Assembly: GCA_001648575.1 (NCBI GenBank)
Contig: LQXN01000063.1
Location: forward strand, 186,001-250,000
Length of the DNA: 64,000 nt
Source: Sutcliffiella horikoshii DSM 8719
GTDB taxonomy: Bacteria; Bacillota; Bacilli; Bacillales; Bacillaceae_I
Direction of reading: 5' to 3'
Positions within the stretch are counted from its first letter, which is position 1. Each line of letters starts with the position of its first letter. Below the pieces are notes generated by a model that searched no databases, was not told the DNA's origin, and saw only the letters and a program-made list of their open reading frames with translations. A program made the position numbers and the translations under genes. Positions 29,192-43,000 of the stretch are shown piece after piece.

Positions 29192-29223
29192 AAAAAGGAA
29201 CCGGAATTTCCTCCGGTTCCTTT
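29192..29223. terminator. Terminator after the small XRE gene
   Basis: AAAGGAACCGG pairs with CCGGTTCCTTT. The rest of 28937-29191 shows no gene. Confidence 0.85.
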
Positions 29224-29231
29224 GAAAACTC

Positions 29232-29435: not shown

Positions 29436-29457
29436 GATCCCCCTCCAAATACTATGT

Positions 29458-29473
29458 TTGCAAACGCTTACAA
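29458..29473 (-). promoter_or_regulatory. CcpA cre-like site
   Basis: TTGCAAACGCTTACAA matches WTGNAANCGNWNNCW fully. It lies just upstream of the small XRE gene start and downstream of the deoC terminator. Confidence 0.6.
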
Positions 29474-29601
29474 TATATTATATAAAAATATTTAGAATTT
29501 TTCAATATTTAAATTCCCCCTATACACCACTGAAGAATTTTTCACCCATCTGGAGCTGGTTAAGCCTCTTCGGTAAAACTTCCATGGCTCCATATAGTGC
29601 T

Positions 29602-29648
29602 AAAAAAACAACAGGATGCCTAGGGATTTATCCATTTGGCTTCCTGTT
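29602..29648 (-). terminator. Terminator of the BMC operon
   Basis: AACAGGATGCC (29610-29620) pairs with GGCTTCCTGTT (29638-29648) with one mismatch; on the minus strand it is followed by GTTTTTTTAG. Confidence 0.75.
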
Positions 29649-29657
29649 ATCAACATG

Positions 29658-30470
29658 TTAGTATCCAGTTCCTTTTCCGCCTGTTACGATGGCGATTCCG
29701 GAGCTAGCGCCGATTCTTGTGGCACCTGCTTGAACCAGCTTTCTTGCTGTATCAAGGTCACGTACGCATGCAGATGCTTTAACGCCCATGTCAGGGCCGA
29801 CTGCTTCACGCATAAGCTTGATGTCTTCTGCCGTTGCACAGCCTGGTCCGAAGCCTGTGGACGTTTTGACGAAATCCGCTCCTGCCATTTTTGCCAGAAT
29901 ACAAGCCTTTTTCTTTTCTTCTGTTTCCAAAAGACCTGTTTCAATAATTACTTTTACTGGTGCATGGCCTTTTGCAGCAAGAACGACCGCTTCGATATCT
30001 TTTTTGACCGTTTCAAAGTCGCCTGATTTAAGGGCACCGATGTTCATGACCATGTCAATTTCCGTAGCCCCGCTTGCGATTGCGTCACGGGTTTCGGAAA
30101 CTTTTACAAAACTGTTGGTAGCACCAAGGGGGAAACCGACTACAGTCGTAATTCCCACATTGGAACCCTTCAGTTCTTGGGCAGCTGTAGGTACCCAGTA
30201 AGGATTGACACATACTGTTGCGAAGTTGTATTCTTTCGCTTCTTCACATAGTTTGACGACCTGCTCTTTTGTGCTTTCTGGCTTTAATAGAGTATGGTCG
30301 ATCATTCTTGCGATAGAAGGTCCTGTGATCAGGTTGGATGATGCATTCGCATAGCTGTTGCCGGTAGAAGTAGTTGAAGCTGCGGGTTTTCCTTCTGCCA
30401 GCTGTTGTTTATTTGTCAGTTGTTCCATGATTTGATTCGTAATTTGTTCCACCAATGCTTCCATTTGCAT
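29658..30470 (-). CDS. deoC: Deoxyribose-phosphate aldolase with encapsulation peptide
   Basis: About 270 residues; cleaves 2-deoxyribose-5-phosphate into glyceraldehyde-3-phosphate and acetaldehyde. The class I aldolase core starts at IDHTLLKP (~55 residues in) and has the acidic residue in EIDMVMNIG, the Schiff-base Lys in VKTSTGF and the second active-site Lys in GVKAS. The N-terminal ~50 residues are extra: an amphipathic helix [16 protein letters not shown] plus a Ser/Ala/Thr linker, the form of a BMC encapsulation peptide. ATG at 30470 sits after GAGGTGA. Odd: the phosphate-binding GGVR of ordinary DeoC is ACVR here. Last gene of the 12-gene BMC operon. Confidence 0.9.
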
Positions 30471-30485
30471 TGTGTTCACCTCGCA

Positions 30486-30749
30486 TTAATGTAATCGGTC
30501 GACAATACCGGCAATGACGGCATCAAAAGAGCCTTTCGGGTCTTCTAATATATCTCTTGCCGCTCCACCTTCTTCGAGTATCAGTACATAGTCCCCAACC
30601 CCTGCGTGAAAGCGGTCAAAAGCAATCATGGCCTCGCCACATTCCTTGCCGCTCGCGTCCACCGGGATGACGACCATGAGCTTTTTGTTTTTATGACTTG
30701 GTGTTTTAATCGTCGAAACGACATTTCCAACGACTTTTGCTAGTTTCAT
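30486..30749 (-). CDS. BMC pentameric vertex protein (EutN/CcmL family), paralogue 1
   Basis: An 87-residue single-domain EutN/CcmL protein; five copies make the pentamer that closes the shell vertices. Family features are the opening [14 protein letters not shown], the central [11 protein letters not shown] and [15 protein letters not shown], and the ending [11 protein letters not shown]. It overlaps the BMC-H gene by four bases (ATGA), so translation is coupled. One of three divergent pentamer genes in this operon. Confidence 0.9.
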
Positions 30750-31021
30750 AGAGTGGTAGGAAGGATTTTCTCGATATCGGAATGTGGTCTTGGAATCACA
30801 TGCACAGATAGGAATTCGCCTACACGTTGAGCTGCATCCGCTCCCGCTTCTGTCGCCGCCTTAACAGCTCCTACATCACCACGTACCAATACAGTGATTA
30901 AACCTCCGCCAACTTGAACTTTTCCTACTAAGGAAACGTTCGCTGCCTTCATCATTGCGTCTGCTGCTTCAATTGCACCTACTAGACCTTTTGTTTCAAT
31001 CATTCCCAATGCGTTGCTCAT
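30746..31021 (-). CDS. BMC-H hexameric shell protein, short form
   Basis: A 91-residue single BMC (Pfam 00936) domain protein that tiles shell facets as hexamers. Hallmarks: [20 protein letters not shown] at the start, [26 protein letters not shown] in the centre (pore loop about GG-GG region), and VHVIPRPH near the end. GGAGG precedes the ATG. Very similar to the second BMC-H gene at 32628 in the core domain, so the pair arose by duplication. Confidence 0.95.
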
Positions 31022-31306
31022 TTATATTTCCTCCATTCGCTTTACGTTGTAATAGTCGATGATTCCAAGTATCCCTGCATCCGATGGGACGAGGTCTTTG
31101 TTCAATGGCAGAGAGGATTCCCTGCTTTTAGCAAGATAAACAAGGTCCCCTTCTCCCGATTGACCGATTGTGTCTATAGCAACAAGTGGTTTGCCTTTAT
31201 CCTGCAACTGATCATCTACTGGTTGGACGATTAATAGCTTCAACCCTCTCAGGTTTTCGTCTTTATGGGTACAGATCATATTTCCAATCACTTTTGCTAC
31301 GAACAT
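31022..31306 (-). CDS. BMC pentameric vertex protein (EutN/CcmL family), paralogue 2
   Basis: A 94-residue EutN/CcmL protein: FVAKVIGNMICTHKDENLRG, LLIVQPVDDQ, LVAIDTIGQSGEGDLVYLAKS and GILGIIDYYNV. The ending is longer and more acidic than the other two paralogues. It ends directly against the BMC-H start. Vertex protein; the reason for three paralogues is unknown but mixed SPU and other loci often have several. Confidence 0.9.
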   Translation of the reverse strand: MFVAKVIGNMICTHKDENLRGLKLLIVQPVDDQLQDKGKPLVAIDTIGQSGEGDLVYLAKSRESSLPLNKDLVPSDAGILGIIDYYNVKRMEEI

Positions 31307-31321
31307 GCTCTAAACCTGCTT

Positions 31322-31777
31322 TCAGCGTTTTATAAAACGACTTTCGATTTCCATTACTTTTGTGACGCGACGATCGTGGCGGCCGCCTGCAAATTCGGTT
31401 TCCAGCCATTTCTTCACCAATTGCTTGGCAAGGCCTTCCCCGATGAACTGGCCACCGATGGATAAGACGTTGGCATTATTGTGTTCCCGGCTGTTGATGA
31501 CAGAGGAGAGGTCCCAGCAGACCGCACCACGGACACCCGGAATCTTGTTCAATACCATTCCGCTACCTACGCCGACTCCGTCAATCATGATGCCGACGTA
31601 ATCTGGATTTGTTGCTACACATTCCCCGACGAAGAATGCGATATCTGGATAATCCACCGATTCATTTGCTTTACAGCCGAAATCAAGGTATTCATATCCC
31701 AGTTCCGTCAAATAGCCTTTTAACGCTTCTTTCAGCTCGTATCCACCGTGGTCGCTACCGATTGCAACTTTTTTCAT
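31322..31777 (-). CDS. RpiB/LacA-family sugar-phosphate isomerase, altered active site
   Basis: A 151-residue RpiB/LacAB-fold protein. Conserved: IGSDHGGYELK (phosphate and substrate end), REHNNANVLSIGG (the His that opens the sugar ring) and EFAGGRHDRRV. In E. coli RpiB the catalytic base is Cys and a Thr follows two residues on (ICGTG); here that stretch reads IDGVG, so Cys is Asp and Thr is Val. LacA subunits of galactose-6-phosphate isomerase also have Asp there (IDAYG). It may therefore act on another sugar phosphate or with a partner. No encapsulation peptide is seen. AAAGGAG precedes the ATG. Confidence 0.85.
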   Translation of the reverse strand: MKKVAIGSDHGGYELKEALKGYLTELGYEYLDFGCKANESVDYPDIAFFVGECVATNPDYVGIMIDGVGVGSGMVLNKIPGVRGAVCWDLSSVINSREHNNANVLSIGGQFIGEGLAKQLVKKWLETEFAGGRHDRRVTKVMEIESRFIKR

Positions 31778-31780
31778 TTT

Positions 31781-32614
31781 CTACGCTCCTTTGGCAAATA
31801 CAGCGATTATTTTCTGAAAAGAATCAACCTTCAAGCTTGCACCGCCGACAAGGACACCATCAATGTCGGTCATTGCCGCGAACTCTTGTGCATTGTTCTC
31901 ATTGACAGAGCCACCATATAAAATGCTGACCTTCTCCGCGTTCTCTTTATCAAGATGAGCGAGAACGGCTCGGATGTATGCATGGATGCGCTGTGCTTCC
32001 TCCGCTGTAGCGGATTCCCCGGTTCCGATTGCCCAAACCGGCTCGTATGCGAAAACCACTTCGGATGCATCAATACCTTCCAACGCTCCTAGCATTTGGG
32101 TCGTCAACACTTTTTCTGTCTGGTTCTGTTGCTTTTGTTGCAAGGTTTCTCCGATGCATATGATAGGGGTCAGACCCCTTTTTAAGGCTTGTTTTGCTTT
32201 CAGGTTCACGGTTGCGTCATCTTCTTGTGCGTATTGCCTTCTTTCGGAGTGTCCGATGATGCAGTGAGAGCAGCCTATTTCTTTTAACAGGCTTGCTGCC
32301 GTTTCGCCTGTGTAGGCGCCATTTTCCTCTTGATGAGTATTTTGTGCGCCTATGTGAATGTCTTTATTTTGTCCTTGTACATAAAGCTTTGCTGGATACA
32401 GGAGTGGTGCAGGCGGGCAAACCACCACTTCCACTCCGTTTCCTTCTTTAAGCTGTTGTAAAAAATCCAGCATTTCCTGGAGGGTTTTGTTCATCTTCCA
32501 ATTTGCAATCACATATTGTGTCCTGCCTGTCGGCAAACTCCCTGGCAGACCAGGGGATTGCTGTACTGCCTCTTGGACAAGTAGTTTGATATAGGCTTTT
32601 ATGGATTGATCCAT
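31781..32614 (-). CDS. tpiA: Triose-phosphate isomerase with encapsulation peptide
   Basis: A 277-residue TIM-barrel enzyme that interconverts glyceraldehyde-3-phosphate and dihydroxyacetone phosphate. All catalytic parts are intact: NWKMNK (Lys), IIGHSERR (His), AYEPVWAIGTG (Glu) and LYGGSV (phosphate). The N-terminal ~30 residues are extra: SIKAYIKLLVQEAVQQ is an amphipathic helix, followed by a Pro/Gly linker, as in BMC cargo tags. A second, glycolytic copy should exist elsewhere. It lets the DeoC product leave as DHAP. Confidence 0.93.
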   Translation of the reverse strand: MDQSIKAYIKLLVQEAVQQSPGLPGSLPTGRTQYVIANWKMNKTLQEMLDFLQQLKEGNGVEVVVCPPAPLLYPAKLYVQGQNKDIHIGAQNTHQEENGAYTGETAASLLKEIGCSHCIIGHSERRQYAQEDDATVNLKAKQALKRGLTPIICIGETLQQKQQNQTEKVLTTQMLGALEGIDASEVVFAYEPVWAIGTGESATAEEAQRIHAYIRAVLAHLDKENAEKVSILYGGSVNENNAQEFAAMTDIDGVLVGGASLKVDSFQKIIAVFAKGA

Positions 32615-32627
32615 CCTACTCTACCTA

Positions 32628-33017
32628 CTATTTCGCTGCCGGTAGAATTCCGTTGACTTCGGAGTTTGGACGTGGGATCACGTGTACAGATACTAGGTTC
32701 CCTACTCTTCCGGCTGCATCCGCTCCCGCTTCTGTTGCCGCTTTTACAGCCCCTACATCACCACGGACCATCACTGTGACTAGGCCGCCACCTACGAATT
32801 CTTTTCCTACAAGTGTTACGTTTGCTGCCTTTACCATTGCGTCTGCTGCTTCGATTGCCCCGATTAGACCTTTTGTTTCGATCATTCCTAATGCTTCTTG
32901 ACTCATTTGAATTCCTCCTAATGGTTGTTTAATAGTTTTGGATTTTGATTGCTTTTTCTTATTTTTAGGTGGTTCCACAGGCTGTCCCTCTTGAGGTAGT
33001 TCATTCAGTTCTGCCAT
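32628..33017 (-). CDS. BMC-H hexameric shell protein with N-terminal extension and internal start
   Basis: The open frame gives 129 residues: a ~37-residue basic, Pro-rich, likely disordered extension ([18 protein letters not shown]) before a standard BMC-H domain ([20 protein letters not shown] ... [10 protein letters not shown]). The outer ATG (33017) has AGGAGGGGG upstream. A second in-frame ATG at 32906, exactly where BMC-H domains normally start, has a perfect GGAGG seven bases upstream. Both starts appear usable, so the gene may make a long and a short shell subunit. The short form would be 92 residues. Confidence 0.9.
32906..32920 (-). promoter_or_regulatory. Internal ribosome binding site and start within the extended BMC-H gene
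   Basis: GGAGGAATTCAAATG on the minus strand: GGAGG, seven-base spacing, ATG at 32906, in frame with the longer product. Confidence 0.75.
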
Positions 33018-33031
33018 TTTTCATCCCCCTC

Positions 33032-34465
33032 CTAAATGATTCTGAAGCTGTCTACCATCACACAGCGTCTTTGGCGGGTGAAGGTTTTGGCTGATGTCAG
33101 CCCTTCTCCCGTCGGCCCTGCTATGGTGAGGGTGGTAAATCCTTCGCTCTGATAGCCAAGCCCTGCAACAGATGGACCGTTTTTCACAAAAATGGTCGCT
33201 TGAATTTCTTTTGCCATCTTTGTCAGGTTGGTGACATTCTGAGAATGCATGATGGCTGTATGTCTGTTGCCTTTTTCAGCTTTTACAGCAAGGCTGATGG
33301 CTTTATTCACATCTGGCACCCTGACAATTGGCAGGATCGGCATGAGCATTTCTGTGTGTATCAAAGGGTGATCTTCCTTTGTTTCGGCAATGATGAGTTT
33401 TACTTTGGAGTCTGCCCTGATCCCTGCCGCTTCGAGCAGAACGGATGCGTTCTTTCCGATAAAATCGCGGTTTGGATAATATTTCTCCCCTTTTTTGATC
33501 AATACTTTTTCAAGCAGCTTGTCCAACTGGTATCCTTTCATTTCGACAGCACCATTTTTAGTCATCTCACTTTTTAAGGAGTTGGCTACTTTTTCGACAA
33601 CGAATACTTCTTTTTCCGCTGTACAGAGGACATTGTTATCAAAGCTTGCTCCCGTTACGATGTCCTTTGCAGCCTTGGGGATGATTGCTGTTTCATCCAC
33701 CACAACCGGCGGGTTCCCGGGACCTGCGGCTATCACTTTCTTCCCGGAGCTCATTGCCGCCTGAACCACTATGCCACCGCCTGTTACGACTAACGCCTTC
33801 ACTTTCGGGTGCTTCATCACTTCATTTGACGTCTCAATGTTGGGACTCGCAACGGAAGTAAGCGTGTTGGCAGGCCCTCCTGCAGCCACAATCGCCTCAT
33901 TTAAAAGCTGCATCGCCTTAATGGATACTTGTTTAGCACTTGGATGCGGGTTGAAAACCACCGCGTTGCCTGCTGCTACTAGAGAAATGGAGTTGTTGAT
34001 GATGGTTGCTGCCGGATTGGTGGATGGTGTGATGGCACCGTAAACACCAACTGGTGAATACTCGACAACAGTCAGACCCCCATCCCCTGAATAAGTCGTG
34101 GCCACAATATCTTCCACTCCAGGTGTTTTATCAGCAGCCAAAAGGTTTTTCGCCACCTTGTCCTCCACTCGTCCAAGCCCGGTTTCTTTGACTGCGAGTT
34201 CAGCAAGTTCTTGGGCATGCTGCCTGCTTACTTCCCGCATTTTCTCTATCATGTTCTTTCTCGTTTCAAGTGGGGTCGCTCTCAGCTTATCCCATGCATC
34301 CGTTGCAGCATCTGCCGCTTCATCGACGCTATGAAACACGCCATTTCCCAGTGGGATCTCACTGTTTCCCCGTTCACTGGAAACGGAGGAGGTTTTGCCC
34401 TCATTCCCAAGCTTAGCAAGGACTTGAGCAACCATTTCTTTTATGTCGCTTTCCTTGATTTGCAC
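33032..34465 (-). CDS. CoA-acylating aldehyde dehydrogenase, BMC type (EutE/PduP-like)
   Basis: A 477-residue enzyme that oxidises acetaldehyde with NAD and CoA to acetyl-CoA. The catalytic Cys is in FDNNVLCTAEKE, the cofactor region has VYGAITPSTNPAAT, and TGEGLTSAKTFTRQRRC is typical of the EutE/PduP branch. The first ~18 residues (IKESDIKEMVAQVLAKLG) are an amphipathic encapsulation helix, followed by a Ser-rich linker. GTG at 34465 uses a GGAGGT that lies in the last codons of the upstream EutN gene. Central enzyme for aldehyde made by DeoC. Confidence 0.93.
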   Translation of the reverse strand: MQIKESDIKEMVAQVLAKLGNEGKTSSVSSERGNSEIPLGNGVFHSVDEAADAATDAWDKLRATPLETRKNMIEKMREVSRQHAQELAELAVKETGLGRVEDKVAKNLLAADKTPGVEDIVATTYSGDGGLTVVEYSPVGVYGAITPSTNPAATIINNSISLVAAGNAVVFNPHPSAKQVSIKAMQLLNEAIVAAGGPANTLTSVASPNIETSNEVMKHPKVKALVVTGGGIVVQAAMSSGKKVIAAGPGNPPVVVDETAIIPKAAKDIVTGASFDNNVLCTAEKEVFVVEKVANSLKSEMTKNGAVEMKGYQLDKLLEKVLIKKGEKYYPNRDFIGKNASVLLEAAGIRADSKVKLIIAETKEDHPLIHTEMLMPILPIVRVPDVNKAISLAVKAEKGNRHTAIMHSQNVTNLTKMAKEIQATIFVKNGPSVAGLGYQSEGFTTLTIAGPTGEGLTSAKTFTRQRRCVMVDSFRII

Positions 34466-34467
34466 GT

Positions 34468-34767
34468 TTAATTACCTCCTTTTGTAAAGGTCAGGGATCC
34501 GTTCAGTTCTATCTGATCCACGATGCCCACTATGGCAGCATCGACGGGTACCCCGTTCGTAATTTCTGTCTGCCTTGCAGAGCTTCCGCTTACAATCAAC
34601 ACGACTTCTCCTACGCCAGACCCGACTGTGTCGATCGCAACAATTGGCTTGCCATCCTCTTCGATTGTGGTCATATCAAGCGGTGTGACGATCAAAAGTT
34701 TCTTGCCTCTGAGCTTTTCTGCTTTGGTGGTTGCGACGATTGAGCCTGTTACTTTAGCAATGATCAT
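34468..34767 (-). CDS. BMC pentameric vertex protein (EutN/CcmL family), paralogue 3
   Basis: A 99-residue EutN/CcmL protein: IIAKVTGSIVATTKAEKLRG, LLIVTPLDMT, VAIDTVGSGVGEVVLIVSGSSAR and VDAAIVGIVDQIEL. The last is the usual end of the fold, followed by a short Thr/Gly tail. AGGAGG lies ten bases before the ATG. Its stop overlaps the ribosome binding site of the aldehyde dehydrogenase gene, implying coupled translation. Confidence 0.9.
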   Translation of the reverse strand: MIIAKVTGSIVATTKAEKLRGKKLLIVTPLDMTTIEEDGKPIVAIDTVGSGVGEVVLIVSGSSARQTEITNGVPVDAAIVGIVDQIELNGSLTFTKGGN

Positions 34768-34800
34768 GATTGCGTTGCCTCCTTTCTAGGAGTTCGTTAC

Positions 34801-35541
34801 TTATTCTTTTAAAATCTGAATCTTCATTTCCCTTGCCATGTCTTTTGCGACCGGGGAGATTTTGCTATTCTTAGGAACCGTAACAGCTTTGACATTTTCT
34901 CTTGATGCACGCTCAATGTGCTTCGAGAGGACAAGTGGTTGTTTATCCTTATATAACTGATGTTGTTCTTTTGCTGTGCGTACAAGCTTATTCAAAGGCA
35001 CCCATTTAACCTGGTCCTTTTGAGTGGTGCGCATGTAGCCTTGCAGCTTTTCTTGAACAGAATGCGTTGCAAGAATTTGTTGATAAACTCCAAGCTCCAC
35101 TTCATTGTTGGCGATGACGACCGGCTTGCCTAACAGCTGGAACTGGATGGCTGTCTTGGTTGCCTTGTCGTCATCAAGCATCAGGGCAAGCTTCGAAACA
35201 AGCTGGAAGGATGCAACCGGGAGAATCAGAAGGTCTGTCGATGTCCAAAGTGACTGCAGCTCCTGGTAATCTGCGCTATCCAACGATAATATTCCTTCTT
35301 CGCCTTCCAGCAGCTCCTCCCATTCCTTTGAAGCCACTATCCTCACCTGAAAAGATGACTTTATTTCCGTAACCGCTTTCAAAATATTGTTAGGATCTGT
35401 AGATTGATAGCTTAATAGTAAGGTGATCAACGGTTTTTTTATTTGCGCGGGGGTTATGGTGTCCTCAGTTTGTTCGGACATATAAGCTTCGACAGCTTTT
35501 CTGACAAGCTCTCTAACCGTTTCCTTTACATCCACAGCCAC
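34801..35541 (-). CDS. BMC-associated flavoprotein-like protein with encapsulation-type helix
   Basis: About 246 residues. GTG at 35541 was chosen because AAGGAGG lies six bases upstream; the open frame upstream of it lies inside pduL. The new N-terminus VKETVRELVRKAVEAYM is an amphipathic helix like the cargo tags of its neighbours. The middle (LITLLLSYQSTD; DLLILPVASFQLVSKLALM; QFQLLGKPVVIANNE) resembles the flavoprotein (HFCD-type) fold seen in some ethanolamine-BMC loci. The last ~60 residues are basic. It overlaps pduL by 29 bases. Possible flavin-dependent or structural cargo; function unknown. Confidence 0.65.
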   Translation of the reverse strand: MAVDVKETVRELVRKAVEAYMSEQTEDTITPAQIKKPLITLLLSYQSTDPNNILKAVTEIKSSFQVRIVASKEWEELLEGEEGILSLDSADYQELQSLWTSTDLLILPVASFQLVSKLALMLDDDKATKTAIQFQLLGKPVVIANNEVELGVYQQILATHSVQEKLQGYMRTTQKDQVKWVPLNKLVRTAKEQHQLYKDKQPLVLSKHIERASRENVKAVTVPKNSKISPVAKDMAREMKIQILKE

Positions 35542-36202
35542 AACCACCCTCCTTTTCCGGAGAACATCGTATTGCGATGATTTCGCCAAGCTGGCCATTT
35601 TTAATATTGGCAGCATTGGCCTCATCCAGATCGATGTGCATCTCCAATTTGTATTTTGGCGAGACACGGATAAGTACATTGGAGTAGGTGATGCCGCGTG
35701 GACCATCAACTTTTATGTCCACCATGTCTCCTGCCTTCACGCCAAATCTTTCTCCATCATCCGGGTGCATATGGATATGGCGGGAGGCGCAAATCAAGCT
35801 TTCCTCCACTTTGATTTGCCCTCTTGGACCCATGATCGTGATGGATTCCGAGCCTGCAAGGTCTCCTGATTGGCGAATTGGGGGAGTCACCCCTATGCCG
35901 TAGCCATCAAACAAGGAGATTTCCACTTGGGTTTTCCCTCTGGCCGGCCCCAGCACCCGTACATTAGGGATTCTTCCTTTTGGACCTATCAATGTTACCG
36001 TTTCTTTTGCCGCAAACTGATTGGGCTGCGAGAGGTCCTTCTGCTTTTTCAGCTCATGCCCCCGACCGAACAGTCGCTCCACATGTTCGGGAGACAGGTG
36101 GACATGCCGGTTGGATACGGCAATCGGCACCTGCTTGGTTGAAACGTGCAAGGTGTTCTGAACCACCTCTTGCACCAGCGCCTTAATGGTCGCTCGATCC
36201 AT
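35513..36202 (-). CDS. pduL: Phosphate acyltransferase PduL with encapsulation peptide
   Basis: A 229-residue BMC phosphotransacylase; converts acetyl-CoA and phosphate to acetyl-phosphate, releasing CoA for the aldehyde dehydrogenase. Two PduL barrels are seen, with zinc-ligand motifs SNRHVHLSPEH (residues ~30-40) and CASRHIHMHPDDGERFG (~140-156), and GYGIGVTPPIRQSGD between. The first ~16 residues (RATIKALVQEVVQNTL) form the encapsulation helix. Odd: a C-terminal tail GGCGCGCKGNG with four Cys, not usual for PduL. The start overlaps the regulator gene by 20 bases. Confidence 0.93.
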   Translation of the reverse strand: MDRATIKALVQEVVQNTLHVSTKQVPIAVSNRHVHLSPEHVERLFGRGHELKKQKDLSQPNQFAAKETVTLIGPKGRIPNVRVLGPARGKTQVEISLFDGYGIGVTPPIRQSGDLAGSESITIMGPRGQIKVEESLICASRHIHMHPDDGERFGVKAGDMVDIKVDGPRGITYSNVLIRVSPKYKLEMHIDLDEANAANIKNGQLGEIIAIRCSPEKEGGCGCGCKGNG

Positions 36203-37154
36203 TGTTACTCTCCCCCATTTCCAGCAAAGCTTTTGCTGTATATTGATCGGTTATCAGGACATTGGCATAATTACCGTTAAGTGCCCCTAGTATGCCTTCC
36301 ACTTTCTTGTTACCGCCTGCCACAAGAATGCTGTAGTCTTTTTCGGCCAATTGGGAAAGCTCTATTCCGATGGTGCGGTCATTCAGGGATTGATTACTGA
36401 TATGGCCATTGATGTCGATGAAGCGCGAGCAGATATCCGCCACGGTTGCATTCTTCTTCAATGTTTCCACATCACTGTCTAAAAAATATCCCGCCCGCAT
36501 AAGTGTCGATTGCTCCCCGGCTTCCCCTACTGTGTAGATTGCAATATTGGCTTTACGTCCAAGTTCCAGCACCTTGTTTATATGTCTGTCTGCGACAATC
36601 GCCTGCTTCACGACAGGATGATCGACCACTGCCGGGACAGGCAGGAAGTGTGGGGTGGTATGGAATGCCATTGCAAGGCCATTGATGATGTCAGATGCGT
36701 GCGTATTAAGCTCTGAATAGCTAACACCGCCATTCAATTGCACAATTTTCACATCATGAACAGTTTTAGGATTAAGCTGCTGGGAAAGTTGATAAAGTGT
36801 CGTCCCCCAAGTAATTCCGATCGTATCGCCATTTTTCACAATGCCGTACAAGTATTCGGCTGCCGCTTCCCCAATTTTCACTTTAATGTGCGAATCTTCA
36901 TACGCCGGGACGGAAGTGACAACACAATCTTTCAGATGGAAAGTTTCTTGGAGCCTTGCTGCCAGTCCATTCACATCTTCTGTCGGATCACAGATTTTAA
37001 TATGTACGACCCCATCCTGTTTTGCCTGATCGAGCAGACGGGATACGGTAGGGCGAGATACGCCAAGCTTTTGGGCGATTTCCTGTTGACTGTAATTGAA
37101 TAGATAATACATTTTAGCCACTTCTACCAAACGGGCTATTTTTTCGTTTTGCAT
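36183..37154 (-). CDS. SorC/DeoR(Bacillus)-type sugar-binding transcriptional regulator
   Basis: About 323 residues. The N-terminal helix-turn-helix is YSQQEIAQKLGVSRPTVSRL (residues ~20-40), and the rest is the SorC sugar-phosphate-binding domain (GDTIGITWGTTLYQLSQQL; VQLNGGVS; AGGNKKVEGILGAL). B. subtilis DeoR, which senses deoxyribose-5-phosphate, belongs to this family. ATG at 37154 follows GGGTGA by seven bases. It heads the BMC operon and very likely controls it and the nup importer through the 14-bp TGAAC-type sites described separately. Confidence 0.88.
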   Translation of the reverse strand: MQNEKIARLVEVAKMYYLFNYSQQEIAQKLGVSRPTVSRLLDQAKQDGVVHIKICDPTEDVNGLAARLQETFHLKDCVVTSVPAYEDSHIKVKIGEAAAEYLYGIVKNGDTIGITWGTTLYQLSQQLNPKTVHDVKIVQLNGGVSYSELNTHASDIINGLAMAFHTTPHFLPVPAVVDHPVVKQAIVADRHINKVLELGRKANIAIYTVGEAGEQSTLMRAGYFLDSDVETLKKNATVADICSRFIDINGHISNQSLNDRTIGIELSQLAEKDYSILVAGGNKKVEGILGALNGNYANVLITDQYTAKALLEMGESNNGSSDH

Positions 37155-37171
37155 GCTCTTTTCACCCGATT

Positions 37172-37185
37172 TCAAATTATGTTCA
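37172..37185 (-). promoter_or_regulatory. Candidate operator, leader site of the BMC operon
   Basis: TGAACATAATTTGA on the minus strand, 12 of 14 matches to the nup-promoter site; lies in the leader close to the regulator start. Confidence 0.4.
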
Positions 37186-37265
37186 TTATACGTGTATAAA
37201 AGTGCTTAGAATCATGGTGGTTCTTGTTGAAATTTAGCATTTTTCTATGAAGATGGATCTGTGTG

Positions 37266-37301
37266 TGAACTTTTGTTAATATACGTTTGAACATATGTTA
37301 A
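37266..37301 (-). promoter_or_regulatory. Twin operators in the BMC promoter
   Basis: TGAACTTTTGTTAA (37266-37279) and TGAACATATGTTAA (37288-37301), imperfect palindromes spaced 22 bases, two helical turns. The second begins five bases after the -10 box, overlapping the expected transcription start, which fits repression by the SorC/DeoR-type regulator. Confidence 0.65.
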
Positions 37302-37305
37302 TTTT

Positions 37306-37333
37306 ATTATAAACCTAGTAAAAATTCTGTCAA
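37306..37333 (-). promoter_or_regulatory. Sigma-A promoter of the BMC operon
   Basis: On the minus strand TTGACA (37333-37328), 16-base spacer, TATAAT (37311-37306): both hexamers are perfect consensus. Confidence 0.8.
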
Positions 37334-37359
37334 TATATTTTATTCTTAATAGTCAGATA

Positions 37360-37373
37360 TGTAAGCGCTTGTT
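37360..37373 (-). promoter_or_regulatory. CcpA cre-like site upstream of the BMC promoter
   Basis: TGTAAGCGCTTGTT, one mismatch to TGNAANCGNWNNCW. Centred roughly 65-70 bases upstream of the expected start, a position where CcpA can activate as well as repress in Bacillus. Confidence 0.55.
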
Positions 37374-37541
37374 TTTGGTGGGGGAGGATGGCTATTGCTA
37401 GGGCAAGGGAAGCATATTTGATAGATTTAGTTCAAAATTTGAGTGAATTTATGACTTTATGTAGTCCTTTTAGTCGCAAATCGGGTAAAAGCTGCTCCCT
37501 GGGTGTTCAAAATCTCTTTGGACCTGACGTCGAGAGCGACT

Positions 37542-37670
37542 TACTTTCCAAAGTCACGACTTTACTTTCCGTTTGGGGACAAATACTTTCCGAACTTTGA
37601 AAATACGAGCCAAACAGAGCCATTTACTTTCCAAACTCCCTGCAATACATGCCAAACGACAAGTGACATC
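37542..37670. repeat. ~40-bp tandem repeat, locus B
   Basis: TACTTTCC-starting units at 37542, 37563, 37584 and 37625 (periods 21, 21, 41). The fuller units share AATACGAGCCAAAC or AATACATGCCAAAC with locus A at 14970-15165. The region 37374-37758 has no convincing gene besides this array. Confidence 0.65.
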
Positions 37671-37758
37671 AAGATTCGACATCTGCACCAAACCCTCTCA
37701 CCGGCCATCACTTACCCTGCACCCGGCCCCCACCCGCCCAAACACCCCATTTCTCCAC

Positions 37759-37797
37759 AAAAAAAAGCACGCCCTCCATCTTAAAGAGAACGTGCCC
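37759..37797 (-). terminator. Terminator after the nup operon
   Basis: GCACG (37767-37771) and CGTGC (37791-37795) with inner CTC/GAG pairs; minus strand ends in eight Ts. Confidence 0.7.
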
Positions 37798-37809
37798 AAA
37801 ACTTCTATC

Positions 37810-38760
37810 TTATCGTTTCCCAGAATCAAACGGTTCACCAACAGCTTTAGGTGCCTGAGAAGATTTCGAGAAAATGATCAATGCGATCAATGTGACCACG
37901 TAAGGGAATACCTTCAAGAATACCGGCGGAATGACAGCCAATGAAGGGACTACCTGTGATACGTTCGCAACCGTAGTCGCAAAGCCGAAGAACAGCGTTG
38001 CCGCCAGGATTCCAAGTGGCTTCCATTGTCCGAAGATCAAGGATGCAAGTGCCAAGAAACCAAGGCCTGCAACCGTACCGTTGAATTCCCCACCTGTCGT
38101 CACGATGAATACCGCACCGCCAAGTCCAGAGAAAGCCCCGGAGATCATAACACCGATATAACGCATTTTGTATACGCTGATCCCCGCTGCTTCTGCAGCA
38201 TGCGGATGCTCCCCGCAAGAACGCAAGCGCAAGCCAAATGGCGTTTTATAAAGTAAGAACGCACTTAAAAGCAAAATGCCGAGTACTAGCCAGGTAGTTG
38301 CGTATGTCCGTGTGAAAAATAAGCTTCCAATCACAGGGATGTCATTCAGAAACGGAACATTGAATGGTTTCAGCGTACTGATTTGGATGTTTCCGCTTCC
38401 TGTGATATTACGCGCCAAGAATACCGTGATGGCAGCAGCAATCATATTGATGGCTGTACCACTGATGATCTGATTGGCATGGAGATTGATACTTGCAAAG
38501 GCATGGAGGAGGGAGAACAATAATCCCATCAAGGTTGCCAAGGCAAGACCGATCCAGATTGCTTTTTGCTGACCGGGCATCATCGCCTGCATTTTGAGGA
38601 TGACAAGGGCACCTGTGAAAGCACCAATGACCATCAATCCTTCCAAACCGATGTTTACAACACCGCTTCGTTCACTGAATAAAGCTCCCAGGGCTGTGAT
38701 CAAAAGAGGGATAGTAAAGATAATTGCATACGGAGCTATTTGCTGAATCGTTGTCCACAT
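37810..38760 (-). CDS. nupQ: Nucleoside ABC importer permease NupQ
   Basis: A 316-residue RbsC-type permease with about eight to ten hydrophobic segments; GLEGLMVIGAFTGALV and YKTPFGLRLRSCGEHPHAAEAAGISV (core of the coupling loop, around residue 175-200) are typical of BmpA-linked nucleoside importers. It follows nupP by three bases. B. subtilis NupNOPQ (YufNOPQ) takes up guanosine and related nucleosides. Here the importer sits next to a deoxyribose-phosphate BMC, so deoxynucleosides are the likely cargo. Confidence 0.88.
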   Translation of the reverse strand: MWTTIQQIAPYAIIFTIPLLITALGALFSERSGVVNIGLEGLMVIGAFTGALVILKMQAMMPGQQKAIWIGLALATLMGLLFSLLHAFASINLHANQIISGTAINMIAAAITVFLARNITGSGNIQISTLKPFNVPFLNDIPVIGSLFFTRTYATTWLVLGILLLSAFLLYKTPFGLRLRSCGEHPHAAEAAGISVYKMRYIGVMISGAFSGLGGAVFIVTTGGEFNGTVAGLGFLALASLIFGQWKPLGILAATLFFGFATTVANVSQVVPSLAVIPPVFLKVFPYVVTLIALIIFSKSSQAPKAVGEPFDSGKR

Positions 38761-38763
38761 ATC

Positions 38764-39858
38764 TTATACCTCCTCCTTCTTCTCAGTCTCGGTCGTGTTA
38801 CGAACGATTGCTGGTTGTTTTTTATTCTTCTTTTTATTGAGGAAGTAGCGAATCATTCTATCTATCAAGATGCTTGTCGCAGCAAAATAGATGATGATGG
38901 CAATGATAGAATCTGCAATCTCTGGTGGGATATCTGTCATCGCATTCATGAATCCACGGCCGGAATAAAGAAGACCGAAGAAAATCGCTGCCAATAATAC
39001 CCCGATTCCAGTGTTTGCTCCAAGAAGTGCCACCGCAATCCCATCGAAGCCTTGTGTCGGCAAGATCCCGATTTGGATGCTCGTCGCATTTCCTGCATAA
39101 AATGCCACTCCGCCAAGACCTGCAAGTCCACCTGCAATGACCATGGACGTAATGATGCTTCTGTTTACCGCAATCCCGGCATACTCCGCTGAATCACGGT
39201 TGAATCCTACTGCTTTCAACTCGTATCCGAGTGTTGTTTTATTAATGATAAAAGAGAAAATGATGACGGTGATGGCCGCAATGAATAATCCTAAGTTAAT
39301 GTAAGAGCCATCAAACATATCTGTTAAGATTGGCGTGCGCAAAGATGCAGATTCCGGTAGTTTTTTAGATTCTGTTTCCAAAAACTCACCTTTAAAGTAA
39401 GTCGGCACCGCGTAATAAACCGTCCAGTAAGCAATCCAGTTCATCATGATGGTGGATACTACTTCATGAACATTGTATCTTGCCTTTAACAGGCCCGGAA
39501 CGAATGCCCAAAGTGCCCCGCCGATGAATCCAGCCGCCACCATGCATACAAGTAATAATGGTCTGGAAAAATCAAACGTCAAGCCAACGGCAACCGCACA
39601 AAAGCCTCCGAATAGCATTTGACCGGCAGCTCCGATATTGAACAAGCCAGTACGGAATGCAAAGGCTACGGATAATCCGGTGAAAATCAGCGGTGTAGCT
39701 GTTGCCAGCGTATTCCCTATTCTAGAAAGGTTTTTCAATCCGCCTTCAAACAAGTATTTATATCCTTCCACAGGATTGTGCCCTGTGACTGCCATCAATA
39801 TCGCACCTGCTATCAGACCGAAAAGGACAGCAAGCAACGAGATTATGCCATTTCTCAT
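38764..39858 (-). CDS. nupP: Nucleoside ABC importer permease NupP
   Basis: A 364-residue permease of the same family, with an N-terminal segment SLLAVLFGLIAGAILMAVTG and the coupling motif TLGYELKAVGFNRDSAEYAGI. A Lys/Glu-rich cytoplasmic tail ends the protein. It overlaps nupO by four bases, so the operon is translationally coupled. Works as a heterodimer with NupQ. Confidence 0.88.
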   Translation of the reverse strand: MRNGIISLLAVLFGLIAGAILMAVTGHNPVEGYKYLFEGGLKNLSRIGNTLATATPLIFTGLSVAFAFRTGLFNIGAAGQMLFGGFCAVAVGLTFDFSRPLLLVCMVAAGFIGGALWAFVPGLLKARYNVHEVVSTIMMNWIAYWTVYYAVPTYFKGEFLETESKKLPESASLRTPILTDMFDGSYINLGLFIAAITVIIFSFIINKTTLGYELKAVGFNRDSAEYAGIAVNRSIITSMVIAGGLAGLGGVAFYAGNATSIQIGILPTQGFDGIAVALLGANTGIGVLLAAIFFGLLYSGRGFMNAMTDIPPEIADSIIAIIIYFAATSILIDRMIRYFLNKKKNKKQPAIVRNTTETEKKEEV

Positions 39859-41378
39859 TCTTCTTCCCCCTTCATCACGCCAGCCATCATCAGACCAAGT
39901 TCGTTTTCGTTCGTTTCTTTTGCATTCACGATCCCGACTAATTGGCCATTATTCACAACGGCAATGCGATCTGAAACATTTATTACTTCATCCAATTCCA
40001 AGGATACAAGCAGAACCGCTTTACCTTTGTCCCTTTGTTCCACAAGTCTTCTATGGATGTATTCAATCGAACCAACATCCAAGCCACGAGTAGGCTGAAC
40101 AGCAATCAAGAGGGTTGGATCGAGCTCGATTTCCCGTCCGATAACCGCTTTTTGCTGATTTCCTCCTGACAGGGAACGGGCGATCGATTTCCCACCTTCG
40201 CCTGAACGGACATCAAAGCTTTTGATAATGGAATCTGCATGCTTTTTAATGGCGGAAAAATTCAGAACGCCACGTTTGGAGTATGGTTGTTTGTGGTATA
40301 ACTCAAGTACCATGTTTTCCTCGATCGTATAATCCAGGACAAGTCCATGCTTATGACGGTCTTCAGGTATATGAGCGATTCCGCTTGCAATTCTTGAACG
40401 AACCGGCATTTTTGTAATGTCTTTTCCTTCAAAAAGAATCGATCCGGAGTCTGCTTGCTTCAATCCTGTAATACTTTCCACAATTTCAGACTGACCGTTT
40501 CCATCGACTCCCGCAATTCCAAGGATTTCTCCTTTTTTGAGTTCCAATGACATGTTTTTAAGTGCGATTACATCTTTGCCCTTTTTAACAGACACGTTGT
40601 CCATTTTTAGGACGATTTCACCTGGTGTCGCTTCTTTTTTGCTGACTTTGAAGTTTACTTCGCGTCCGACCATCATTTCTGCCATTTGTTCTTTCGACGT
40701 TTCCGCCACGTTTACAGTGCCAATTGTCTTTCCTCTTCTGATAACGGTACAACGATCTGCCATCGCTTTGATTTCTTTCAGCTTATGGGTGATGATGATG
40801 ATCGACTTTCCTTCTGCAATAAGGTTTTTCAGGATCTTCCCAAGTTCGATGATCTCCTGAGGTGTAAGAACCGCAGTAGGCTCGTCCAAAATCAACACGT
40901 CTGCCTGACGATACAACATCTTCAAAATTTCCACACGCTGTTGCATCCCAACGGAAATGTCTTCAATTTTTGCATGAGGATCAACGTTCAGTCCATACTT
41001 TTTGGACAAATCCTCAATTCTTTTGCTGGCAGTCTTTTTATCGAGTACATACATCTTATGCAACTCGGAACCTAGCATGATATTTTCTGTTACCGTAAAG
41101 TTACTGACCAGTTTGAAGTGTTGGTGAACCATTCCGATTCCAAGCTTCGTCGCGACGTTAGGATTGGCAATCTTCATTTCTTTGCCATTGATTTTTATCG
41201 ACCCTCTATCCGGTTGATACATTCCGAACAGTATCGCCATCAACGTTGATTTCCCGGCACCATTTTCCCCAAGGAGGGCGTGAATTTCTCCCTGCTTCAG
41301 ACGAAGTGTAATATCATCATTGGCAACTATTCCAGTAAACTCTTTCCGGATATTGAGCATCTCCACTACATAGTCCAT
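39855..41378 (-). CDS. nupO: Nucleoside ABC importer ATPase NupO (tandem ATP-binding domains)
   Basis: A 507-residue protein with two fused ABC ATPase domains. The first has a normal Walker A (GENGAGKSTL), a divergent signature (SVGMQQRVEILK) and Walker B (DVLILDEPTAVL). The second has a degenerate Walker A (GVDGNGQSEI, no Lys-Ser/Thr), a good signature (LSGGNQQKAVIGRE) and altered Walker B (TLLIAVQPTRGLD), as is normal in the RbsA/YufO class. A terminator lies between nupN and this gene (41447-41473). Confidence 0.9.
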   Translation of the reverse strand: MDYVVEMLNIRKEFTGIVANDDITLRLKQGEIHALLGENGAGKSTLMAILFGMYQPDRGSIKINGKEMKIANPNVATKLGIGMVHQHFKLVSNFTVTENIMLGSELHKMYVLDKKTASKRIEDLSKKYGLNVDPHAKIEDISVGMQQRVEILKMLYRQADVLILDEPTAVLTPQEIIELGKILKNLIAEGKSIIIITHKLKEIKAMADRCTVIRRGKTIGTVNVAETSKEQMAEMMVGREVNFKVSKKEATPGEIVLKMDNVSVKKGKDVIALKNMSLELKKGEILGIAGVDGNGQSEIVESITGLKQADSGSILFEGKDITKMPVRSRIASGIAHIPEDRHKHGLVLDYTIEENMVLELYHKQPYSKRGVLNFSAIKKHADSIIKSFDVRSGEGGKSIARSLSGGNQQKAVIGREIELDPTLLIAVQPTRGLDVGSIEYIHRRLVEQRDKGKAVLLVSLELDEVINVSDRIAVVNNGQLVGIVNAKETNENELGLMMAGVMKGEEE

Positions 41379-41446
41379 AGAGCGATTCTCCCTTTTTTGT
41401 TTTTTTATCCCAAGAGGACAGACAACTAACCTCTTTCTTTGGCATT

Positions 41447-41473
41447 AAAAAAGGCGGGACCCCCCGCCTTTTT
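41447..41473 (-). terminator. Intra-operon terminator between nupN and nupO
   Basis: GGCGGG (41453-41458) pairs with CCCGCC (41463-41468), minus strand followed by TTTTTT. It probably lets only part of transcription continue, giving more binding protein than transporter. Confidence 0.8.
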
Positions 41474-41500
41474 CTTTTTTCATATGCCAGGCATTATTTA

Positions 41501-42607
41501 TTATTTGATTAAATCGCCTTGATCAGAAGAAACTTCCACTTCACCGGATTTAATCAATTCAAAGATTTCATTTACTTTAGTAGTTGTCTCATCACTAAGG
41601 TTTGGATTTTCTTCAGGAAGTCCAACTCCGTCGTTTGTCGCATCAAATGTAAGAGTTTCTCCACCAGGGAACTCGCCATCGATTTCTGCTTTGATCATGT
41701 CAGCAGCTGCGGTGTCGATTTTCTTGACTGCAGAAGTCAGGATAACAGAATCTCCATTGTCCATTTTACCTTCTTCATATTGGTCAACGTCAACGCCGAC
41801 CATCCATACATCATCTCCGCCTCCAACACGTGTTTTAGCTTCGTTGATTGCCCCAACTCCAACTCCACCCGCTGCTGCGAAAATAACATTTACTCCACGA
41901 TCGAACATTGCTGCAGCAATTTGTTGTCCAGCTGCTACATCGTCAAAAGTACCTTGGTATACAACGTTTTCTGCTTTGATGCTTACATTTGTGTCAAGGT
42001 TTTCATTTGCATATGCAATACCTTGTTGGAAGCCCCAGTTGAATTTTTGAACCGGAGGAATTTCCATACCACCGATGAATCCAGCTTCGCCCTCTTTTAA
42101 TTCTAAAGCTGTTGCAATACCAGCTAGGAATCCAGCCTCATGCTCAGCAAAGAAAATAGAAACTGTGTTTTCTCCTATTACTGGATTGAAGTCACCATTG
42201 TGTGGAGATCCATCGATCAATACGAATTTAGCATCTTCGAATTGGCTTTGTGCGTTGAATACAGCCGTTTCGAATTTGAAACCTGGTGTTACGATGAATT
42301 TGTAGTCTGCATCATACAGGTTTGTGATCTCTTGCATGTAATCAGCTTCTGTAGTACCTGCAGGCTTTAAGTATTTCTCTTTAATCCCTAATTCTTCTTT
42401 AGCTTGTAAAATCCCGTTCCATGTACCTTCATTAAAAGATTTGTCATCAATCGTACCAGCGTCCGTTACCATTCCGACTAACATGCCAGAACCGCTGTTA
42501 TCGCCTGATGCAGATTCAGAACCGCCCTTATTGTCTGTTCCGCAACCTACCAAAAAGATCATCGTTGTTAAAACAGTGATGATCGTTGCAATTAATCCCT
42601 TTTTCAT
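41501..42607 (-). CDS. nupN: BmpA-family nucleoside-binding lipoprotein NupN
   Basis: A 368-residue solute-binding lipoprotein. Signal peptide and lipobox: TVLTTMIFLVGCG (Cys ~22), then a Gly/Ser-rich linker and MLVGMVTDAGTIDDKSFNEG, the hallmark opening of BmpA/PnrA purine-nucleoside-binding proteins. First gene of nupNOPQ. Its promoter resembles the BMC promoter in detail. Confidence 0.92.
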   Translation of the reverse strand: MKKGLIATIITVLTTMIFLVGCGTDNKGGSESASGDNSGSGMLVGMVTDAGTIDDKSFNEGTWNGILQAKEELGIKEKYLKPAGTTEADYMQEITNLYDADYKFIVTPGFKFETAVFNAQSQFEDAKFVLIDGSPHNGDFNPVIGENTVSIFFAEHEAGFLAGIATALELKEGEAGFIGGMEIPPVQKFNWGFQQGIAYANENLDTNVSIKAENVVYQGTFDDVAAGQQIAAAMFDRGVNVIFAAAGGVGVGAINEAKTRVGGGDDVWMVGVDVDQYEEGKMDNGDSVILTSAVKKIDTAAADMIKAEIDGEFPGGETLTFDATNDGVGLPEENPNLSDETTTKVNEIFELIKSGEVEVSSDQGDLIK

Positions 42608-42710
42608 GCCTTAACTCCCCCAAAATTTAAAATTAATAGTAAATTGAAAACCTTTACTATCATTACTATATTCGTAAACTTCCAATATTTCAATATATGT
42701 TTTCCAAAGA

Positions 42711-42724
42711 TGAACATATTTTCA
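42711..42724 (-). promoter_or_regulatory. Candidate SorC/DeoR operator in the nup promoter
   Basis: TGAACATATTTTCA (plus strand), palindromic TGAA...TTCA. It shares TGAACATAT with the BMC operator and lies at the same 25-base distance from the shared ACCTAGTAAAAA block. Confidence 0.6.
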
Positions 42725-42728
42725 TGAA

Positions 42729-42757
42729 TAAAATTACCTAGTAAAAAATATTGTCGA
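42729..42757 (-). promoter_or_regulatory. Promoter of nupNOPQ, homologous to the BMC promoter
   Basis: Minus-strand -35 TCGACA (42757-42752) is followed by a spacer containing the same 12-base block (42736-42747, ACCTAGTAAAAA on plus) as the BMC promoter. The -10 is less well conserved (ATTTTA at the matching place). Confidence 0.55.
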
Positions 42758-42780
42758 AAAATTGTTGATAAATACTGGGT

Positions 42781-42794
42781 TTTTAGCGCTTTCA
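42781..42794 (-). promoter_or_regulatory. CcpA cre-like site upstream of the nup promoter
   Basis: TGAAAGCGCTAAAA on the minus strand; core AAAGCGCT is ideal, the last arm is weak. Same relative place as the cre of the BMC promoter (28 versus 31 bases from the -35 box). Confidence 0.5.
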
Positions 42795-42812
42795 TTGGCA
42801 GAAATTACATAA

Positions 42813-42837
42813 AAGGGGTCTGACCCGCTCCCCTTTA
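42813..42837. repeat. Hairpin with GGGGTCTGACCC core
   Basis: AAAGGGG...CCCCTTT around TCTGACCCGCT. The rest of 42608-43000 holds the nup promoter, an AATGCGT...ACGCATT hairpin (about 42844-42872) and no gene. Confidence 0.4.
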
Positions 42838-43000
42838 AAGCGCTAATGCGTCACCAAACCACCCCCACGCATTGATAGGTTCGATGTCTATTTGTAAGCA
42901 GTCCTTTGTTTATTGTATGATAGGGTACATATATAGAGTTATTCCTCTCCTCTTCCTATATAAGGGTGAGTTTATTTTTCATATAAGGACGTGGGTTTGA

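Follow-up and report, generated by a model that had tools for sequence, protein, structure and literature searches.

Within a 64,000-nucleotide stretch of the 4.68 Mb genome of Sutcliffiella horikoshii DSM 8719 (the window), twelve minus-strand genes of a sugar phosphate utilization (SPU) type bacterial microcompartment (BMC) occupy positions 29658-37175, and the genes of a NupNOPQ-type importer precede them at 37810-42607. The locus is a genuine SPU compartment, SPU4-like, in a genus with cultured members. We propose that it catabolizes deoxyribose-5-phosphate (dR5P) derived from deoxynucleosides, an explanation of the whole to which we assign a probability of roughly three in four. Three things are new here: the operator pattern at the importer and compartment promoters, the confinement of the importer linkage to one genus, and a separate clade of SPU-type RpiB proteins.

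In the proposed pathway, NupNOPQ would import nucleosides, as its homology suggests, and cytosolic phosphorylases and a phosphopentomutase encoded elsewhere in the genome, with roles established for their families, would give dR5P. This compound or a related sugar phosphate would release the repressor DeoR and open the nup and SPU promoters, as predicted from the operator pattern. Going by family functions, DeoC would then cleave dR5P within the shell to acetaldehyde and glyceraldehyde-3-phosphate, a CoA-acylating aldehyde dehydrogenase (AldDH) and PduL would carry acetaldehyde through acetyl-CoA to acetyl phosphate, and triosephosphate isomerase (Tpi) would convert the triose to dihydroxyacetone phosphate. 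The SPU-type RpiB homolog may open the furanose ring of dR5P or exchange its anomers, supplying DeoC with the linear aldehyde.

Gene content of the locus

An earlier note on this DNA had described twelve same-strand genes of an SPU-type microcompartment with nupQ, nupP, nupO and nupN directly upstream, and Pfam searches bear out the genes, their minus-strand orientation and their positions (Table 1). DeoC (pfam01791) and an RpiB-type protein (pfam02502) stand together in one shell locus, the combination that marks the SPU type, and both a CoA-acylating AldDH and a phosphotransacylase are present. The two BMC-H, three BMC-P and zero BMC-T genes correspond to SPU4, an assignment made by shell counts alone. 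A profile search of the whole genome found no PF00936 gene beyond the two BMC-domain genes of the locus. The importer comprises a PnrA-like binding protein, two permeases and a double ATPase, from which transport of nucleosides is predicted; the closest solved relative of the nupN product is TmpC, presumably the Treponema nucleoside receptor PnrA.

Putative DeoR operators at the importer and compartment promoters

A palindromic operator model of 18 bases was learned from the sequences upstream of deoR at 20 of 21 SPU loci outside Sutcliffiella (L043, with no deoR match, was left out). The model reached a total score of 350, compared with 178-189 in five mononucleotide-shuffled sets, which were run from 200 starting points as against 400 for the real set. 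The three best places in the window are 37286 (19.7), 37264 (16.2) and 42709 (15.1), and the fourth in the 64 kb scores 10.7. Because these top three places fall twice at the SPU promoter and once at the nupN promoter, import and compartment appear to be co-regulated. The nupN site lies at -119 from the nupN start and is near-consensus in 10 of the 12 SPU-bearing Sutcliffiella genomes, which are closely related, so that these are not ten independent cases. The nup and SPU genes appear to be transcribed separately, since a terminator-like stem and a strong promoter lie between them.

In 11 of the 12 deoR upstream sequences from Sutcliffiella, and in 10 of the 20 from other genera, the best half-site is accompanied at a distance of 21 or 22 bp by another with a score above 2. 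By our own count, the half-sites of the published Bacillus subtilis DeoR operator are likewise 22 bp apart (PMC11229326; statements on the literature refer throughout to excerpts of the cited papers), and its left half scores 13.3 with the SPU-trained model. Four genomes without the SPU-type AldDH (L349-L352) have a DeoR of the Asn type described below clustered with nupC and deoC; in each 13-14 kb piece the motif scores highest at two places, one upstream of deoR and one upstream of nupC (7.0-13.1, some of them weak). The strict TTGAA-TTCAA form of the operator yielded nothing consistent in the first operator search.

Together, the type of the regulator and the operator pattern at the nupN and SPU promoters support the earlier suggestion that deoxynucleosides are the feedstock, which we now consider likely and better supported than before. 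Several pieces of evidence weigh against our explanation: (i) The nupN site scores below the SPU sites and is degraded in two of the 12 SPU-bearing Sutcliffiella genomes (G010 and G247). (ii) SPU-bearing G371 has no site at nupN (best score 1.2), while G121, which lacks both SPU and DeoR, retains one (15.1). (iii) Genome-wide the motif is unspecific, with 57 (28 + 29) pattern matches at up to one mismatch vs 55 (23 + 32) for the reversed control, and other places in the genome score 19.6, 17.5 and 17.1. (iv) The locus carries no alcohol dehydrogenase, which leaves the recycling of NAD+ unexplained.

A genome-wide regulon was accordingly rejected, the pattern matches being unenriched over the reversed control. 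The three exact pattern places in the genome include the SPU and nupN promoters, but the pattern was drawn from these. High-scoring places occur near an HU-like gene (L159) and within a hydrolase-like one (L157) and appear fortuitous; the third outside the window is L238 (17.1). Scores of the twelve pieces of the same genome are no fair background because most were picked for pattern matches.

Linkage to nucleoside importers across genomes

The nupNOPQ genes lie directly upstream of the SPU genes in all 12 SPU-bearing Sutcliffiella genomes (the window and L113-L123). Outside the genus we compared 21 SPU loci of Bacillus relatives (L036-L050, L124-L129) with flanks of at most about 10 kb, some of them shorter (0.55 kb upstream in L039); importers were recognized by homology to a query set and by eye. 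Within these limits nup was directly upstream in none of the 21 and about 5 kb downstream in one (G371). Thus, the linkage does not hold as a general feature of SPU loci but is specific to the genus. That no such importer was recognized at 17 of the 21 loci within these flanks is a further point against our explanation.

No unrelated importer recurs consistently either: the others recognized were NupC with DeoC (two loci) and a ribose-type ATP-binding cassette (ABC) transporter with ribokinase (one). In the two Alkalicoccus loci (L049, L050), NupC and a second DeoC lie upstream of deoR, with about 1.35 kb of small open reading frames between the second DeoC and deoR in L049, whose NupC passes TIGR00804 (450.6 vs a cut-off of 442). 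These loci look like a nupC-deoC-deoR operon to which compartment genes were added after deoR. In Pseudogracilibacillus (L048), the neighbors of deoR are a ribokinase gene (TIGR02152, 338.4 vs 299.65) and ABC genes of the ribose type. In L127 a drug-exporter-like ABC pair and xylose genes are found, the latter a xylose isomerase and a xylulokinase upstream of the SPU locus (L127:3366-6221, by eye). With the same queries, among 37 SPU-type loci of other lineages (506 kb), pdp (L060), nupC (L085) and deoB (L088) adjoin three, and there are also weak kinase or ATPase matches; 24 Cys-type RpiB loci (374 kb; see below) show no nucleoside genes, just a general ABC ATPase. These counts (3/37 vs 0/24) are too few to weigh.

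The linkage could be an accident, the SPU genes having been inserted beside an old nupNOPQ cluster whose nupN palindrome serves another regulator or none. Consistent with this, nupN occurs in all 18 family genomes searched, SPU-bearing or not, and SPU-less G121 and G148 have the order rluF, nupNOPQ, araC, which is that of their SPU-bearing relatives L113 and L114 minus the SPU genes; the missing nupN site in G371 and the motif matches elsewhere in the genome point the same way. Against it, an operator trained independently finds its top three window places at these two promoters, and the site at -119, near-consensus in 10 of 12 closely related genomes, has a weaker counterpart or none in four of five SPU-less genomes checked (best nupN-upstream scores of the five: 15.1 in G121, then 7.1, 7.9, 3.5 and 1.2). 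We therefore regard accidental linkage as improbable.

The operator copy at nupN in G121 (L313), a genome with no DeoR match, is the same as that of the window and is possibly a relic of recent SPU loss; in G148 (L314) the copy is decayed (the 7.1 above). The gltS gene, which adjoins the SPU genes in the window, is absent in G121 and G148 and also in SPU-bearing L113 and L114. In L045 (Bacillus sp. MUM 116), the shell genes are accompanied by DeoR, RpiB and DeoC, but PduL, Tpi, the flavoprotein and the SPU-type AldDH have no match beside them; in L046, Tpi is unmatched.

The regulator and the identity of the substrate

The DeoR/SorC regulator of the earlier note proves to pass the Bacillus DeoR equivalog (Table 1), and its best solved relative is 8r7y, Deoxyribonucleoside regulator. 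It has Asn at the column of a Lys that we take to be the Schiff-base residue of B. subtilis DeoR. Asn stands at this column in 37 of 37 SPU DeoR rows (the window and duplicates counted). B. subtilis DeoR binds its effector, dR5P, covalently (PMC11229326). The exchange of Lys for Asn was rejected as an SPU signature: in a set of 40 DeoRs from the order, Lys is found in 28 and Asn in 12, and the source genomes of these 12 lack an SPU-type AldDH (one of them, G208, has a 49% AldDH match).

In the SPU DeoC of the window, Ala-Cys takes the place of a Gly-Gly that is presumably the phosphate loop of the family. With the Asn in DeoR, this change could mean that dR5P is not the true substrate and that some other 2-deoxy or deoxy sugar phosphate is. 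Most SPU copies from Bacillus relatives share the change (those of L046, L047, L048 and L129 differ). However, SPU DeoC in other phyla keeps Gly-Gly, DeoR of the Asn type also lies beside nupC and deoC in genomes without SPU-type genes, and Tpi and an acetaldehyde-type AldDH fit the products of dR5P; another substrate is thus very unlikely. Because just the Bacillus relatives, and not all of their SPU copies, have it, the change to Ala-Cys was set aside as a substrate switch.

An SPU-type RpiB with a changed active site

Catalysis in known RpiBs involves Cys66 as base, Thr68 as the O2-O1 proton relay and His99 for opening the furanose ring (PMC4783025, PMC3755991); C69S and C69A abolish activity in characterized members, and Mycobacterium tuberculosis RpiB uses a Glu base at position 72 (PMC4783025). 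The window protein has neither Cys66 nor Glu72. Asp66 and Ser72 stand in their places, together with Val68 and Asn95, and the ring-opening His99 is kept. Its predicted model fits RpiB structure 3he8 at 1.1 Å. It narrowly misses the ribose-5-phosphate (R5P) isomerase B equivalog TIGR01120 (134.4 vs 138.65) and passes the broader NF004051 subfamily (163.6 vs 135). Of the RpiB-like isomerase in the earlier note, the family and fold stand and the isomerase probably does not, the catalytic cysteine being replaced by Asp.

This change extends well beyond the window. An alignment of the 107 distinct rows among 129 shows just two residues at position 66, Asp (68 rows) and Cys (39). Asp66, Ser72 and Asn95 are each present in 68 of 68 SPU-type rows and in none of the 39 others, and are the sole columns to pass this contrast. 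At position 68 most SPU-type rows have Ala (39) or Val (27), with one Ile and one retained Thr; no row departs from Asp9, His10, His99, Asn100, Arg133 or Arg137. The Asp-type loci have a shell gene in 58 cases, DeoC only in eight and neither in two (contigs of 3.2-3.3 kb); none of the 39 Cys-type loci has a shell gene or DeoC, although 15 of these are the housekeeping copies of Sutcliffiella, viewed in 3.4-kb pieces only. Because the rows come mostly from the best 80 loci of a search seeded with the window protein, Asp types are over-sampled, and the Bacillus-related clade of the window alone contributes 31 of the 68 rows. All 19 loci of the order that were found via AldDH (L113-L131) have Asp66. 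Of the ten Asp66 loci without shell genes, nine are in genomes with EutN/CcmL genes elsewhere (the genome of L089 has none); three of four Cys-type control genomes also have EutN/CcmL genes, so this contrast is not clean.

The Asp-type proteins fall on one side of a single branch (support 100/93; 100% of bootstraps). Without the four signature columns the split remains one change, and its Shimodaira-Hasegawa-like approximate likelihood ratio support falls to 73 (quick method). The clade spans Bacillota, Chloroflexota, Gemmatimonadota, Acidobacteriota, Planctomycetota, Myxococcota and others. Fusions of RpiB to DeoC, all of the Asp type, occur in five genomes of one lineage and group together (100/95), so they are probably a single event, which lessens their weight; a fusion in Marinimicrobia has been described (Axen, PMC4207490). 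An RpiB other than the SPU type is retained in each of the 16 Sutcliffiella genomes searched and has Cys66 in every distinct row aligned; in the window's genome this housekeeping copy lies about 140 kb from the SPU genes on the same contig.

The substrate dR5P has no 2-hydroxyl, the group (O2) that Thr68 serves in R5P, and neither R5P nor ribulose-5-phosphate is a substrate of DeoC. From its residues, the SPU-type RpiB is probably not an R5P isomerase. Because the ring-opening His99 is kept, both isomerization residues are lost and the gene is fused or adjacent to that of DeoC, we infer a ring-opening helper. The Asp66-Ser72-Asn95 clade would then constitute an ancient, unrecognized enzyme that opens the ring of dR5P or exchanges its anomers for DeoC, a possibility that we place somewhat short of even; ring opening of dR5P as such we suggest tentatively. 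If that reading is true, the role of the protein would be comparable to that of carbonic anhydrase in the carboxysome. Two further points count against it: Asp could itself serve as an isomerase base, and no encapsulation peptide is obvious in the RpiB of Bacillaceae.

It is unlikely, in our view, that the protein is still an R5P isomerase that uses Asp66 as base and handles ribose from RNA or ribonucleosides. The common fold, the phosphate-binding Arg133 and Arg137 in all 68 rows, the Glu base of the M. tuberculosis enzyme (PMC4783025) and the ribose ABC genes and ribokinase upstream of one SPU locus would all fit such an activity, but the C69S and C69A variants are dead (PMC4783025), Thr68 is lost in 67 of 68 rows, DeoC uses neither pentose phosphate, and the Cys66 copy is retained in all 16 Sutcliffiella genomes. 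Nor is a non-catalytic scaffold or DeoC partner at all probable: such a role would agree with the loss of the catalytic base and the five fusions, whereas invariant Asp66, Ser72 and Asn95 with intact His99, Asn100, Arg133 and Arg137 in 68 rows point to selection on an active site. If the ring-opening reading is true, the signature enzyme of the whole SPU class is misnamed, and it would be clear why a pathway that starts from a sugar without a 2-hydroxyl includes an "isomerase". A clade-wide change in the active site is the part that a specialist would not expect.

Three other RpiB-family proteins were observed. The L060 contig, which has no shell genes, groups an Asp-type RpiB with DeoC and a pyrimidine-nucleoside phosphorylase, and three EutN/CcmL genes are on another contig of that genome. 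An Asp-type RpiB of Chloroflexota (L063:9803-10471) has an encapsulation-peptide-like N-terminal extension, unlike the RpiB of the window. A further family member in Sutcliffiella (L282, genome G331) has Ser instead of His99 and a very long branch.

Predicted encapsulation and the flavoprotein cargo

A shell enclosing the enzymes is predicted, with encapsulation-peptide-like N-termini on several of them. The number of shuffled N-termini, out of 2000, that were equally amphipathic was 21 for the flavoprotein, 41 for DeoC, 54 for Tpi and 110 for AldDH, and 176 for RpiB, 657 for PduL and 840 for DeoR. The DeoC extension of about 54 residues is encapsulation-peptide-like, and its best solved relatives align from residue 55; the housekeeping DeoC elsewhere in the genome has 225 residues.

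The flavoprotein-like cargo of the earlier note is confirmed by a confident model (predicted local distance difference test, pLDDT, 89.5) with an N-terminal helix (residues 5-26), a low-confidence linker and a flavodoxin-like domain. Its best Foldseek matches are decarboxylases of the flavin mononucleotide type and UbiX, namely phosphopantothenoylcysteine decarboxylase, TvaF and UbiX (E = 2.6e-5); the top two have template modeling scores of 0.43-0.50 by query length. PF02441 was found in 7 of 28 relatives. Flavin-binding families are frequent in BMC loci (Axen). Because the locus has no alcohol dehydrogenase, our guess is that the flavoprotein is a candidate for NADH recycling.

Supply of deoxyribose-5-phosphate

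The earlier note reported no nucleoside phosphorylase or phosphopentomutase in the window, and this holds for the part examined, about 19.5-48.8 kb, where 20 proteins were searched with Pfam and the remaining open reading frames judged by eye. Its expectation that they are supplied from elsewhere is borne out on contig 36, where deoB and the pyrimidine- and purine-nucleoside phosphorylase genes lie together; the purine-nucleoside phosphorylase was named by eye. deoB and the pyrimidine-nucleoside phosphorylase are present in all 16 Sutcliffiella genomes. A housekeeping DeoC occurs in every one of the 15 Sutcliffiella genomes at least 90% complete, and the 12 SPU-bearing genomes of the 16 carry a second, longer DeoC. 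deoB and pdp are found with identical scores on contigs 36 and 48, probably an assembly duplicate.

Table 1. Features of the SPU and nup genes in the window, in order of position.
Feature	Position	Strand	Evidence or remark
DeoC, deoxyribose-phosphate aldolase	29658..30479	-	TIGR00126, 273.1 vs cut-off 117.3
EutN/CcmL shell pentamer	30486..30749	-	PF03319
BMC-H shell hexamer	30746..31021	-	PF00936
EutN/CcmL shell pentamer	31022..31306	-	PF03319
SPU-type RpiB homolog (LacAB_RpiB by Pfam)	31322..31777	-	
Triosephosphate isomerase with N-terminal extension	31781..32614	-	PF00121 from residue 34
BMC-H shell hexamer, Lys-rich N-terminal extension	32628..33017	-	PF00936 from residue 42
CoA-acylating aldehyde dehydrogenase (PduP/EutE-like), N-terminal extension	33032..34465	-	PRK15398 subfamily, 663.8 vs cut-off 403
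EutN/CcmL shell pentamer	34468..34767	-	PF03319
HFCD-fold flavoprotein cargo	about 34801..35541, start codon uncertain	-	Pfam Flavoprotein just below cut-off
PduL phosphotransacylase	35513..36202	-	PF06130 (PTAC/PduL)
DeoR (SorC family) repressor	36183..37175	-	NF053881, 437.8 vs cut-off 420
Two putative DeoR half-operators, 22 bp apart	37264..37303 (cores 37266-37279, 37288-37301)	-	scores 16.2, 19.7
Sigma-70 promoter of deoR-SPU, TTGACA-16-TATAAT	37306..37333	-	12/12 matches; precedes deoR
Terminator-like hairpin after nupQ	37765..37797	-	13 pairs and T run
nupQ-type permease	37810..38760	-	PF02653
nupP-type permease	38764..39858	-	PF02653
nupO-type ATPase	39855..41378	-	PF00005, two stretches
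nupN-type nucleoside-binding lipoprotein	41501..42607	-	PF02608; TmpC 2fqw, E 6.9e-63
Putative DeoR half-operator at nupN promoter	42709..42726 (core 42711-42724)	-	score 15.1

Elsewhere in the window, positions 19551-25840 resemble, by eye, an N-acetylmuramic acid recycling operon with a MurQ etherase, a sugar ABC transporter, a beta-lactamase-like hydrolase and an RpiR regulator. No RNA family reached the gathering score in 27000-46000, and no tRNAs were found within the 64-kb window.

Comparison with known systems

The SPU type was named in 2014, when most of its enzymes were assigned to the degradation of dR5P for DNA catabolism (Axen 2014, PMC4207490). A 2021 survey counted more than 280 SPU loci in 26 phyla, placing the type among the most prevalent microcompartments, proposed DNA degradation products as its substrate and called pfam02502 the RpiB type that isomerizes R5P (Sutter 2021, PMC8217296); a human-microbiome survey of the same year repeats the DNA-sugar proposal (PMC8156839). 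That SPU compartments process DNA-derived dR5P was therefore already in print, a correction to the earlier note, and the idea of this substrate is not new. In the excerpts of the open-access literature that we found, the residue change in RpiB, control by DeoR and the importer linkage of SPU loci are unreported, as is any experiment on SPU function. A locus in a Bacillus relative, with putative DeoR-type operators at importer and compartment promoters, offers a tractable test of the DNA-sugar hypothesis.

The locus shares with the published SPU loci (Axen 2014, Sutter 2021) DeoC, an RpiB-family protein, an acylating AldDH, PduL and the shell, and DNA-sugar catabolism has been proposed for those as well. 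It differs from them, as excerpted, by the addition of Tpi, which Axen mentions for one Atribacteria locus (PMC4207490), a flavoprotein cargo, DeoR and a nucleoside importer. The published accounts name the RpiB protein an R5P isomerase, and their excerpts do not mention the change at Cys66. With the RpiB/LacAB isomerases, the SPU-type RpiB has in common the fold, His99 and the phosphate arginines, and it differs from them in Asp for Cys66, Val or Ala for Thr68, Ser72 and Asn95. Finally, the B. subtilis DeoR with its dra-nupC-pdp operon resembles the present system in regulator family, half-operator sequence and 22-bp spacing; unlike there, the Sutcliffiella DeoR sits at a microcompartment operon and has Asn in place of the presumed Schiff-base Lys.

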